From IMG/VR virus record IMGVR_UViG_3300012954_000113, positions 1 through 21,225 of that record: 21,225 nt of DNA. One strand, written 5' to 3'. The notes under the pieces are model-generated. The model worked only from the letters and a program-made list of their open reading frames with translations. It did no database searches and was not told the origin of the DNA. This document shows, in pieces, positions 493 through 3,372 of the stretch. Within the stretch, counting starts at the first letter, position 1. Each line of letters begins with the position of its first letter. Source of the stretch: a virus. A program made the translations under genes and the position numbers.

Positions 493-774
493 TTATGTTT
501 GAGGAGGACCAGCAGGTCCCCACCCATCGTTCTCAGGAACACAGTCATCATCATCAACTTGATCGACGGATGCAATGTCACATACTGGCACCTCATGCTC
601 ACCACCTACAAGATACCATGGCATAACGACACCATGATACTCTGGATGTGCTTGGAAGTCCACAGGGTATTCTTTATCACCCAGATACTTTAGTTCGCTT
701 TCTGGAATAGCGTTGTCTCGTAACATTGCTTGTAGCTGCAAGTGCGTCAACTCGTACTGCGTGGGTACTCTCAT
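493..774 (-). CDS. hypothetical acidic-tailed protein (93 aa)
   Basis: The start is the ATG at 774 because GGAG lies 5 bases upstream (780-783). The longer readings beginning at 957 or at the in-frame ATG giving MKNTKD have no ribosome site and lie deeper within DUF4385. The protein starts MRVPTQYELTHLQLQAMLRDN, passes through a Pro/Gly/aromatic centre (HPEYHGVVMPWYLVGGEHE) and ends with an acidic DQVDDDD segment and GWGPAGPPQT. The composition and codon sense look protein-like and the acidic tail is distinctive. The family is not recognised and there is no membrane segment. It overlaps DUF4385 by 98 bases in another frame. Confidence 0.7.
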   Translation of the reverse strand: MRVPTQYELTHLQLQAMLRDNAIPESELKYLGDKEYPVDFQAHPEYHGVVMPWYLVGGEHEVPVCDIASVDQVDDDDCVPENDGWGPAGPPQT

Positions 775-1228
775 TAGATCTCCAAAGTTTGCGTTGTCTT
801 TTGTATTCTTCATTGTTTGCAACGATGTCACGTACTCTCTTGAATATCTGAGCACTTTTATTATAGTCACAGGTCCAGTGATCAGATTCTTGAGGGCGGA
901 CCTCACCATTGTCATCATACTTTGTACCTGAGTGATGATTAGCATATCGACGAGCACGAGTAAATCCCATCTCTAGAAACTTACGACACATATCCATACC
1001 TACAAAGTCTTTAGCGTCTCTGTAGTCAAGATACATCGCATAGATTTTGTTTGCAGACTTAACTGCTAGCTCAGGAGTTCTGAATTTCCAATGAGCACAA
1101 ATGTCGTTTGTATAAGGGCGAACCAGTAGAACTCCTTGTTCTCCCCTACCGATACGATAAAGTTCGTGAGTTGCTGGATCTGTAAAGTCAAGTTCCTCGT
1201 AAGGTAGTTCATAGCAAAATTCAAGCAT
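677..1228 (-). CDS. DUF4385 family protein (183 aa)
   Basis: Residues 1-140 match the DUF4385 pattern known from T4-like cyanophages and some bacteria: LPYEELDFTDPATHELYRIG, RGEQGVLLVRPYTNDI, HWKFRTPELAVKSANKIY, DFVGMDMCRKFLEMGFTRARRYANH. The biochemical function is unknown. The RGEQGV-L and FTRARRYANH stretches are the conserved cores. The last 32 residues (from 152) are basic and of low similarity to anything I know, and they are read from DNA that also encodes the start of the next gene. The family normally ends near the EEYKR segment, so the tail may be an extension or a sign of a changed stop. A 47-base gap without a clear ribosome site precedes the ATG. Confidence 0.85.
   Translation of the reverse strand: MLEFCYELPYEELDFTDPATHELYRIGRGEQGVLLVRPYTNDICAHWKFRTPELAVKSANKIYAMYLDYRDAKDFVGMDMCRKFLEMGFTRARRYANHHSGTKYDDNGEVRPQESDHWTCDYNKSAQIFKRVRDIVANNEEYKRQRKLWRSNESTHAVRVDALAATSNVTRQRYSRKRTKVSG
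780..783 (-). promoter_or_regulatory. ribosome binding site GGAG for the 93-aa gene
   Basis: The coding strand reads GGAGATCTAATG with a 5-base spacer. It lies inside the DUF4385 reading frame and supports the start at 774 rather than a longer protein. Confidence 0.65.
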
Positions 1229-1275: not shown

Positions 1276-1902
1276 TCAAGCGCCTGGGAACATGATATTG
1301 AATGAGATTGAAATTCTGTCTTGATCTGTGTTATTCTCTTCTACATTATGACCAATGTATGCTGGGAACATGAAGACCCTACCTTCTTTTGGTAATATTT
1401 CATGAACTGCCCACTCATCCACGTTTTTACTGATAGGATGCATAAACTTCTGTGCTGCATACTCTGATGGATGATGTAATACTAAAGAACCTGCCTGTCT
1501 TGGTTGTGGTATGCTTACACCATTACCATCAGTCCTTGAAGGTACATTAATGTATATGATACCAGCAGCAGATGCTCCTGGGTGTATGTGTTGTGAGTTC
1601 CAAGAGTTAGGACCATTGATATTAAACCACCAGTTCTGTATCCTTGTGCCCCTACCGATAAATGATGTCAACTCATTTTGAATTGATGTGATAACATATG
1701 TCATCGATGGGGATTTATACAATGCCGTTGCATCTTGTGGTCCAACCTTGATAGACTGCCAAGAGTTTCTGCCACTTGCAATCTCTGCTGGATAGTCTTT
1801 CTTTACTTTATATGCAAGATCGATGATATTTTGTTTGTGATCATCAAAGAATAGTACATCATGCTCATATAGATGAACAGGAAATATTTCTTGTTTTCTC
1901 AT
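1276..1902 (-). CDS. 2OG-Fe(II) oxygenase, second subfamily (208 aa)
   Basis: This differs from its neighbour and matches the TIGR02466 / 2OG-FeII_Oxy_5 pattern: WWFNINGPNSWNSQHIHPG, then SAAGIIYINVP, GSLVLHHP, EGRVFMFPAYIGHNV and RISISFN. Candidate metal ligands are H105 and/or H107 in HIHPG and distal H185, with R196 for 2-oxoglutarate. I chose the ATG at 1902 over the in-frame GTG at 1923: GGAGA ends 4 bases before this ATG, the upstream gene stops one base earlier, and the extra seven residues would lie inside that gene. The substrate is unknown. Its pairing with an unrelated oxygenase subfamily suggests sequential or different hydroxylations rather than a simple duplication. Confidence 0.87.
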   Translation of the reverse strand: MRKQEIFPVHLYEHDVLFFDDHKQNIIDLAYKVKKDYPAEIASGRNSWQSIKVGPQDATALYKSPSMTYVITSIQNELTSFIGRGTRIQNWWFNINGPNSWNSQHIHPGASAAGIIYINVPSRTDGNGVSIPQPRQAGSLVLHHPSEYAAQKFMHPISKNVDEWAVHEILPKEGRVFMFPAYIGHNVEENNTDQDRISISFNIMFPGA

Positions 1903-1903
1903 A

Positions 1904-2464
1904 TTATCTCCATTGTGGACCACATGCCCACGCTACAAAAACTTTACGAATACCAGATGTAACTGGTAATACTCTATGTGTCATGACAGATGGAAATATA
2001 AGAATATCACCCTTTTCTAATTTGAGTGTCTTAATTTCTACACCATTGTCATTCTCATAGCTAACTCTCTTGAATTGAAACTCTCCACCCTCATATTCAT
2101 CATTCAATACAAGCGTCATTGATAATTTCCTTGCTGCATCACCATCATGAACATGCCAATCGTCATGCCAATCATAATGTTGATCATTTTTATATGTAAT
2201 GAACTGAATAGGTATCATTGACTTGAGATCAAACTTCCAATAACTATTGTTTGCTTTGATCAAGTTTGCAAATATGTAGTTGTTGATTTGTTCATCTTTA
2301 ACTACACTAACATTACAGTCACGAATCTCTTTCTTAGAACCATCTACCATAAGACCACCAGCATTCCACTTGTGGTCATTATCATTTACATACTTTAGAA
2401 TTAAATTAAGAGAGTCGTCTGGTATCTTTACCTTTATCCATTCTTTTAACTTATTAGTTGGCAT
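1904..2464 (-). CDS. 2OG-Fe(II) oxygenase, PKHD-type hydroxylase (186 aa)
   Basis: This is a jelly-roll dioxygenase that would use 2-oxoglutarate, O2 and Fe(II) to hydroxylate a substrate. The metal triad is visible: H100-x-D102 in YDWHDDW, and distal H163 in VMTHRVLPVTSGIRKV, with R173 placed to bind 2-oxoglutarate. RKLSMTLVLND-EYEGGEFQF is the family's usual strand between them. The C-terminal HRV-PVTSG-R pattern is typical of prolyl-4-hydroxylase/PKHD-type proteins related to YbiX/PiuC. The length fits a minimal catalytic domain. The substrate is unknown; related phage enzymes have been proposed to act on proteins or nucleic acids. It overlaps the preceding gene by 11 bases, and its end (TGGAGATAA) doubles as the ribosome site of the next oxygenase. 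Confidence 0.88.
   Translation of the reverse strand: MPTNKLKEWIKVKIPDDSLNLILKYVNDNDHKWNAGGLMVDGSKKEIRDCNVSVVKDEQINNYIFANLIKANNSYWKFDLKSMIPIQFITYKNDQHYDWHDDWHVHDGDAARKLSMTLVLNDEYEGGEFQFKRVSYENDNGVEIKTLKLEKGDILIFPSVMTHRVLPVTSGIRKVFVAWACGPQWR
1907..1911 (-). promoter_or_regulatory. ribosome binding site GGAGA for the second oxygenase
   Basis: The coding strand reads GGAGATAATATG. The site sits inside the last codons of the upstream oxygenase and 4 bases before the ATG at 1902. It decides the start in favour of that ATG. Confidence 0.75.
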
Positions 2465-2774
2465 TATTCATCATTTCCAGAAACTCTTCGTATCTCTCTT
2501 GATACATTCTGTCTACTTCTGGAACTGGATTGCCAATAGTTACTACACTACCAAATGGAACATCAAAAGATGAATCTGCAGATCCACCCATCCATGCAAC
2601 GTAATTAATATCGAACTCTTGTGCTCCTGTTTCTTGATTGATCTTTGGGATCATCATAATCTTATACGGGAAAATAAAAGAAAATCCTACTTTATTTCCA
2701 TTCGCATCAAGACTGTCACCGACTTTAGAAACAAGTTCTTCGCCAGTGACTAGTTTAATAATTTTAGTGTCCAT
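2454..2774 (-). CDS. small conserved-looking protein, possible Sm-like barrel (106 aa)
   Basis: The protein opens with KIIKLVTGEELVSKV, continues with a strand-rich section (FSFIFPYKIMMIP, DINYVAWM) and then VPFGSVVTIGNPVPEVDRMYQERYEEFL. The order 'KL-x-TGEE-(hydrophobic) ... PY ... W ... ITI-x-NP ... Y' resembles small phage and cyanobacterial proteins sometimes described as Sm-like beta barrels. I offer that only as a fold guess; no RNA-binding role can be shown. It is followed by a helical C-terminus. The start is 3 bases after the glutaredoxin stop, and the last 11 bases overlap the start of the next gene. Confidence 0.7.
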   Translation of the reverse strand: MDTKIIKLVTGEELVSKVGDSLDANGNKVGFSFIFPYKIMMIPKINQETGAQEFDINYVAWMGGSADSSFDVPFGSVVTIGNPVPEVDRMYQERYEEFLEMMNNAN

Positions 2775-2777
2775 AAT

Positions 2778-3026
2778 TTATTCAGGTACTGTTACTAATC
2801 CTTTATCCAATAGAAATTTAGCTACATCAGCAATTGTAGCATATGCTGTATCATCAATCAATGTATATGGAGTTTGATTGATGTCTGGGAATGCTGTTCG
2901 GAATTCTTCCATACTAATATCACTTCCAATTCTTACCTCTGTCCAAGTAAGGTTTGCTCTTTCCAGTAGAGTTTTGGCATGGGTGCAGTAAGTACACCCT
3001 GATGCTGTAAATAATTTAACTTCCAT
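2778..3026 (-). CDS. glutaredoxin (82 aa)
   Basis: This is a small thioredoxin-fold redox protein of normal glutaredoxin length. It has a beta strand VKLFTASG, the dithiol active site C11-T-Y-C14, and the cis-proline motif Q51-T52-P53 followed by YTLIDD. The later GG-D motif that helps hold glutathione in many glutaredoxins is replaced by YATIADVAKFL, so glutathione use is less certain than the fold. Phage glutaredoxins usually feed electrons to ribonucleotide reductase, but no nrd gene is in this window and here it sits between structural and oxygenase genes. It could reduce cysteines in other proteins or the host pool. Start and stop lie 4 and 3 bases from its neighbours. Confidence 0.9.
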   Translation of the reverse strand: MEVKLFTASGCTYCTHAKTLLERANLTWTEVRIGSDISMEEFRTAFPDINQTPYTLIDDTAYATIADVAKFLLDKGLVTVPE

Positions 3027-3030
3027 TGTT

Positions 3031-3372
3031 TTAATTCTGATAAATTATACTCTGCTTGTCAACGACATAGCATTTGAAATAATACTCATCGGTCTTGTCA
3101 CCCAACTGTGTCTTTGTTGGGAACCATTCTTTAGCACTAATTATTGCTGAGTCTTGACTAGTCATTTTGATAATGTTATCATCACCAGTCTTGATTGTCA
3201 ACAACAGGTCATCTGGAAGAAAGTCTTCATAGTATGCATATACTTTATCTTTTACCGATTGCTCTGCTCTGTCAAGATCATTGTTTGTAAAGTAAATGTA
3301 CACACATGTGTTCTCTGCAGCACATTGATATAAAATATCAAAAATATCGTATGAATCTACAATATCAATCAT
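3031..3372 (-). CDS. hypothetical protein (113 aa)
   Basis: I do not recognise this protein. It is acidic and rich in Asp and Tyr (IVDSYDIFDILYQC, YAYYEDFLPDDLLL), with a central KTGDDNIIKMTSQDSAIISAKEWFP stretch, no predicted membrane segment and no signal peptide. The pattern of short alternating hydrophobic segments suggests a small alpha/beta fold. The start overlaps the preceding stop as ATGA, supporting coupled translation from the chaperone-like gene. The glutaredoxin ATG lies 4 bases after its stop. The tight coupling makes it a real gene even though its function is unknown. Confidence 0.75.
   Translation of the reverse strand: MIDIVDSYDIFDILYQCAAENTCVYIYFTNNDLDRAEQSVKDKVYAYYEDFLPDDLLLTIKTGDDNIIKMTSQDSAIISAKEWFPTKTQLGDKTDEYYFKCYVVDKQSIIYQN

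Follow-up and report, generated by a model that had tools for sequence, protein, structure and literature searches.

Oxygenase and glutaredoxin genes adjoining the tail fibre genes of a T4-like cyanophage and their possible role in fibre hydroxylation

Placement of 2-oxoglutarate (2OG)-Fe(II) oxygenase genes next to the tail fibre genes is typical of Kyanoviridae. The virus DNA analyzed here (referred to as the window, i.e. a whole IMG/VR virus record of 21,225 bases) is a variant of this arrangement: the resident oxygenases are absent, and a glutaredoxin (Grx) and two oxygenases (2OG#2 and 2OG#1) are found in their place. That related viruses nearly always keep such enzymes beside the fibres suggests, without proving it, that the enzymes act chemically on the structures with which the virus itself binds its host.

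Gene content of the fibre locus

The gene content of the window is that of a T4-like cyanomyovirus, with all named parts on the minus strand. A giant structural gene, open at its 5′ end, is followed by three Collar-domain fibre genes, a tail fibre chaperone and a series of small genes (Table 1). In protein comparisons, the nearest longer relatives were Kyanoviridae and uncultured contigs, whereas phage relatives at the DNA level were limited to short, weak pieces. For T4-type late promoters (TATAAATA), neither an excess nor an exact site was detected.

Table 1. Features of the fibre locus, listed in minus-strand gene order.
Feature	Position	Strand	Basis
FIB_A, short tail fibre, Collar domain, 522 aa	10099..11667	-	PF07484 5.9e-13; phrog_4591 7.3e-67
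FIB_B, Collar-domain fibre, 695 aa	8012..10099	-	PF07484 1.1e-5; Cys cluster
FIB_C, Collar-domain, glycine-rich virion protein, 1250 aa	4258..8010	-	PF07484 8.9e-10; phrog_30655 1.8e-208
Tail fibre assembly chaperone, 263 aa	3369..4160	-	PF16778 6.4e-14; phrog_4697 3.8e-34
ORF113, conserved protein adjoining chaperone	3031..3372	-	position after chaperone in both clades
Grx, dithiol glutaredoxin, 82 aa	2778..3026	-	PF00462 7.2e-6; CTYC motif, cis-Pro53
SmL, Sm-like small protein, 106 aa	2454..2774	-	phrog_431 1.9e-14; PF16243 weak, 0.047
2OG#2, PF13640, PKHD/PiuC-like 2OG-Fe(II) oxygenase, 186 aa	1904..2464	-	Pfam 6.1e-16; PiuC 3.5e-5
2OG#1, PF13759 2OG-Fe(II) oxygenase, 208 aa	1276..1902	-	Pfam 1.3e-18; TIGR02466; fold
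DUF4385 protein, after cassette	677..1228	-	PF14328 1e-50

The initial annotation had described a tightly spaced cassette of 1.75 kb, immediately downstream of fibre and chaperone genes and comprising a glutaredoxin and two oxygenases of different subfamilies. All three genes were confirmed by matches over the Pfam cut-offs, and the oxygenases do belong to separate families (PF13640 and PF13759). Two corrections are required: the cassette contains a fourth gene that had been overlooked (SmL), and ORF113 intervenes between the chaperone and Grx. The run from the chaperone to 2OG#1 sits tightly behind the three fibre genes, with near-zero or overlapping spacing throughout (chaperone/ORF113, −4 bases; ORF113/Grx, +4; Grx/SmL, +3; SmL/2OG#2, −11; 2OG#2/2OG#1, +1). 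For 2OG#1, the ATG at 1902, which is preceded by GGAG, is preferable to the GTG at 1923 as start codon.

The chaperone, which adjoins FIB_C, scored 52 bits against PF16778 (cut-off 26.6). SmL is kept beside Grx in relatives. No family in the Pfam, PHROG or NCBIfam profiles matched ORF113 above cut-off; as this gene directly follows the chaperone in both clades described below, with or without oxygenases, it is a candidate chaperone partner. In many relatives, too, a DUF4385 domain is encoded downstream of the fibre genes and their neighbours. FIB_C, the largest of the Collar fibres, has a long glycine-rich stretch in its middle that is reminiscent of the polyglycine domains of adhesins.

Oxygenases at the fibre locus of Kyanoviridae

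For 17 complete genomes of Kyanoviridae that encode Collar fibres, positions of PF13640 and PF13759 matches were compared with those of Collar matches. Of the 144 oxygenase genes, 57 followed the last Collar match at a distance of no more than 8 kb, against 5.9 expected; a count this high did not occur in 20,000 random rotations. The initial annotation had asked whether the oxygenases occur at unrelated loci in most relatives. This is not the case, since fibre-locus oxygenases were present in 16 of the 17 genomes. The sole exception was S-WAM2, whose seven oxygenases are all found elsewhere. Cyanophage genomes carry 4-18 oxygenases each, many of them away from the fibre locus. Given this strong excess behind the fibres of complete relatives and the recurrence of the same module in about 20 contigs, the gene arrangement is not due to chance.

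The recurrent layout starts with fibre, oxygenase and chaperone, followed by a second and a third oxygenase, of which the third is annotated as 'DNA endonuclease V'. Two small genes and, in some genomes, a fourth oxygenase precede uvsW. In a tree of the largest family, the enzymes encoded between the last fibre and the chaperone (slot 1) formed a clade of 20 rows (15 isolate and 5 uncultured enzymes; SH-aLRT 96) without any member from other loci. This clade was represented in 16 of the 17 genomes with Collar fibres and in none of the four without (Fisher 8e-4, uncorrected for kinship). A profile search of IMG/VR yielded at least 597 slot-1 relatives, and neighbourhoods were judged for the nearest 80. 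Among these, 76 were immediately flanked by a fibre gene upstream and a chaperone gene downstream, three had one of the two neighbours and one had neither. Two further oxygenase families were confined to the fibre locus (15/15 and 13/14).

The resident enzymes of Kyanoviridae (e.g. S-RIM32 gp219, gp217 and gp216, and S-RSM4 gp210, gp207 and gp206) belong to the same superfamily as those of the window and have the same place with respect to Collar fibres and chaperone, but their subfamilies and slots differ. The window lacks the slot-1 enzyme, leaving a gap of just 97 bases between FIB_C and the chaperone, as well as families 3 and 4, and has Grx in addition. Among the examined isolates, SmL was found at the fibre locus of S-RSM4 only.

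Within the window clade (L008-L027, chaperones more than 50% identical), the core of fibre, chaperone, ORF113, Grx and SmL is constant. The oxygenase occupies one of three positions: (i) before the chaperone (L015-L019, L027); (ii) between Grx and SmL (L012-L014, L021-L025); or (iii) after SmL (the window, L008-L011). At no locus were two of these positions occupied, L026 has no oxygenase, and the locus is incomplete in L020. Different oxygenase subfamilies alternate here, whereas Grx, SmL and chaperone remain the same. Since each state corresponds nearly to one clade on the chaperone tree, the slot changes reflect few independent events.

A second chaperone clade comprises 38 contigs, among them S-WAM2. 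Its fibres are homologous, but no oxygenase, Grx or SmL adjoins the chaperone; in some members, oxygenases follow at a greater distance, beyond DUF4385. Any modification is thus either not obligatory or possible in trans. The interpretation offered in the initial annotation is partly supported: the oxygenases do cluster at the fibre locus, including one clade fixed between fibre and chaperone, but this does not extend to the S-WAM2-like clade.

The two oxygenases and the glutaredoxin

2OG#2 scored 59.6 bits against PF13640 (cut-off 27), and its iron triad (H100-x-D102, H163) and 2OG-binding residue (R173) are invariant in nine relatives. 2OG#1 scored 67.7 bits against both PF13759 (cut-off 27) and TIGR02466 (cut-off 62.5). 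Its candidate metal and 2OG residues (H105, H107, H185 and R196) are likewise invariant in nine relatives, with HxH instead of the HxD typical of the superfamily.

AlphaFold models were obtained for 2OG#1 and 2OG#2 (pLDDT 75 and 81, respectively). The nearest folds of the 2OG#1 model were 3BVC and 2RG4, followed by P4H/PHD prolyl hydroxylases; those of the 2OG#2 model were Dictyostelium PHD, a Pseudomonas putida P4H solved with EF-Tu, PiuC, PHD2 and the PBCV-1 collagen hydroxylase (vCPH). Both oxygenases are thus predicted to fold like peptidyl hydroxylases, and this predicted fold favours protein substrates; the catalytic motif is intact in 2OG#2 and putatively so in 2OG#1. For cyanophage oxygenases, a structural similarity to human EGLN3 has been noted previously (PMC12774648). 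P. putida P4H, PHD2 and vCPH resemble the window enzymes in their double-stranded beta-helix fold and compact size, and share HxD...H...R with 2OG#2. However, sequence identity is only about 9-21%, and 2OG#1 differs by its HxH at the proximal site. 2RG4 and 3BVC, from marine Rhodobacterales and of unknown function, are the best solved matches of 2OG#1 in sequence as well as fold, and share with it the H-x-H-P motif and the distal H and R. For 2OG#2, the best solved sequence match was PiuC, although 2OG#2 ends at the catalytic domain. Equivalence to PiuC/PKHD-type hydroxylases was rejected, as the score of 68.5 bits is far under the NCBIfam cut-off of 143.

Relatives of both enzymes are also found at other loci. 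In Syn19 and S-RIM12, the interval from uvsY to uvsW contains members of the 2OG#2 family, which also occur at further loci. For 2OG#1, the closest judgeable IMG/VR relatives have Grx in their locus, nearly always directly adjacent, whereas more distant relatives do not. Their gene order is Grx-2OG at the fibre locus and 2OG-Grx after psbD; in a sister contig of the window, SmL and 2OG#2 lie between Grx and 2OG#1, as they do in the window. In a tree of 2OG#1-type enzymes (50 rows), linkage to Grx was observed for 14 of 21 members of one subclade and for none of the 29 outside. A single origin shared by all Grx-linked enzymes did not emerge from the tree, which allows one to three origins, with up to three changes. 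The nearest 2OG#1 relatives outside the fibre locus are those at psbD (S-CAM1, S-CAM3 and uncultured contigs), where a PF13759 oxygenase is paired with a dithiol Grx as in the window. This pair differs from that of the window in its locus, its reversed gene order and a Grx from another clade. The view of the cassette as a single undescribed unit was therefore abandoned: relatives of 2OG#1 adjoin Grx at psbD, and relatives of 2OG#2 adjoin uvsW and other genes.

Grx scored 26.6 bits against PF00462 (cut-off 22.9), and C11, C14 and P53 are invariant in relatives. The fibre-locus Grx proteins (n = 14) form their own clade (support 97/97), apart from the Grx encoded at the psbD/purM locus of isolates. 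Contig G003, which bears locus L010, has two Grx genes: besides the fibre-locus copy, another adjoins gnd, psbD and psbA (names of these genes derived from translations). The fibre-locus Grx is hence a paralogue rather than a relocated NrdC. Its separate clade and the presence of both copies in G003 also led us to reject orthology with the usual phage NrdC. In isolates, the usual phage Grx and a 2OG oxygenase, whose family varies, are direct neighbours after psbD in roughly half of the lineages examined; these comprise S-CAM1, S-WAM2, S-CAM3, S-PM2, Syn1, Sf-FP1 and Sf-CH11 (loci L003, L082, L085, L086, L087, L090 and L091).

Reduction of a disulfide within 2OG#1 by Grx is unlikely, as 2OG#1 of the window does not contain any cysteine. 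In the clade with Grx, FIB_B has a fixed C-x3-C-x6-C-x-C pattern, two cysteines of which are replaced by Ala/Ser/Thr/Gly and by Tyr in the clade without Grx. This cluster could represent a metal site or disulfides. Together with one extra fixed cysteine in FIB_A, there are three gains and no fixed losses. The excess was not convincingly above background (fixed differences at 3 of 14 cysteines, compared with 79 of 721 for all residues) and the two clades amount to one comparison, so that the extra cysteines provide a lead rather than a result.

Possible roles of the fibre-locus oxygenases

The explanation that we consider the best, though somewhat short of an even chance, is that the operon for fibre assembly encodes protein-hydroxylation and redox enzymes of its own: late-operon hydroxylases would act on fibre or chaperone clients, with Grx as a dedicated helper. 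The conserved position suggests that the slot-1 enzyme at least, and by analogy the other oxygenases of the fibre locus, act on a local product, i.e. the fibre, the chaperone or ORF113. Late in infection, while fibres fold on their chaperone, 2OG#1 and/or 2OG#2 would use O2, 2-oxoglutarate and Fe(II) to hydroxylate a fibre or chaperone client on its side chains. Such hydroxylation might alter fibre stability or receptor binding, and Grx may keep the iron enzyme, or the cysteine-rich FIB_B, reduced in the oxygen-producing host cell. We regard fibre modification with caution because the sister clade lacks an adjacent oxygenase and the window oxygenases have relatives at other loci. The presence of Grx and SmL but no module oxygenase in L026, as well as the small number of slot-change events, also count against it. 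The wider claim, namely that Kyanoviridae carry hydroxylases dedicated to modifying the phage's receptor-binding fibres while these are assembled with the chaperone, and that the window represents a variant in which an additional Grx serves that step, appears possible but doubtful.

Oxygenases in cyanophages have been noted since Syn9, for which a role in DNA repair was proposed (PMC2984593). Effects on 2-oxoglutarate and nitrogen have been proposed as well (PMC3037559). In S-SCSM1, 24 copies were counted, and as of 2022 the viral functions had not been specifically investigated (PMC9602691). The synteny of fibre, oxygenase and chaperone offers a concrete alternative to the ideas of DNA repair and nitrogen metabolism. 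Among the papers that could be searched in full text, none reporting hydroxylated phage virion proteins was found, and none on cyanophage oxygenases with fibres, glutaredoxin or virion hydroxylation linked the oxygenases to fibres. If true, the proposed modification would constitute, in an abundant marine family, a post-translational modification system for phage adhesins that is not described in those papers. Oxygen-dependent hydroxylation of adhesins would then add a new layer of control over phage host range and particle stability in the sunlit ocean.

A possible, if rather unlikely, alternative is that the stretch between fibre and uvsW is a tolerant insertion site collecting oxygenases, for which the fibres are mere neighbours. 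Targets would then be host proteins or metabolites, such as EF-Tu, ribosomal proteins or the 2-oxoglutarate/nitrogen balance. The many oxygenases encoded elsewhere in cyanophage genomes, the P4H solved with EF-Tu among the closest folds of 2OG#2, the S-WAM2-like clade without oxygenases at this locus and the published suggestions of 2-oxoglutarate draw-down and nitrogen signalling (PMC3037559) agree with such a passenger role. However, the cargo of the locus is mainly oxygenase and not mixed, three oxygenase families are rare or absent elsewhere, and the slot-1 clade is unlike the content of a tolerant site in being fixed in nearly all complete genomes and in most of the nearest metagenomic loci judged (16/17 and 76/80, respectively).

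It is also conceivable, but improbable, that Grx and 2OG#1 are a self-standing pair with a redox or iron role unconnected with fibres, which in this clade is found in the fibre operon by happenstance and elsewhere beside psbD in the same combination. The top judgeable 2OG#1 relatives indeed have Grx in their locus, be it fibre or psbD, Grx adjoins an oxygenase at psbD in seven isolates, and Grx linkage is restricted to the one 2OG#1 subclade (14/21 versus 0/29). Yet the fibre-locus Grx clade stays with the module when the oxygenase is of another subfamily in slot 1 (L015-L019) or absent (L026), the linkage requires up to three changes on the tree, and 2OG#1 of the window is three genes from Grx. 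AlkB-like repair or modification of nucleic acids, an earlier proposal for the oxygenases next to uvsY/uvsX in cyanophages, is very improbable. In its favour are the 2OG#2 relatives found between uvsY and uvsW (Syn19, S-RIM12), the suggestion of repair for Syn9 (PMC2984593) and the frequent position of uvsW at the end of the fibre locus. Against it, the Pfam matches of the two oxygenases (those listed at E up to 1) did not include an AlkB model, peptidyl hydroxylases were the best among the listed structural matches, and the window lacks uvsW where L010 has it.

Several annotated proteins in the compared loci deserve mention. Proteins annotated as 'DNA endonuclease V' (phrog_274; L002 15737-16240, L005 12459-12989, L007 15899-16417 and 17022-17606) look like 2OG oxygenases; the one of S-RIM32 matched PF13640 with 29.7 bits (cut-off 27), and members of its family hardly occur outside the fibre locus. 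According to a review, cyanophages do not have denV, and the label is probably wrong. Proteins labelled 'ferrochelatase' (phrog_3531; L002 19888-20478, L007 17603-18145) display HxD...H motifs like those of 2OG oxygenases without a Pfam match, and phrog_3531 matches 2OG#2 at 2e-18. In pelagiphages, a 'ferrochelatase' was reported beside a 2OG oxygenase (PMC9599517), and this pairing may rest on that label. Both probable mislabels bear on published accounts of metabolic genes. Finally, the region gp43-gp54 of Syn9 (L007 11055-18145) comprises about ten consecutive 2OG/cupin-like genes, including two labelled 'minor coat protein' and the JmjC-like gp49, near tail fibre genes and directly after two tryptophan halogenases.
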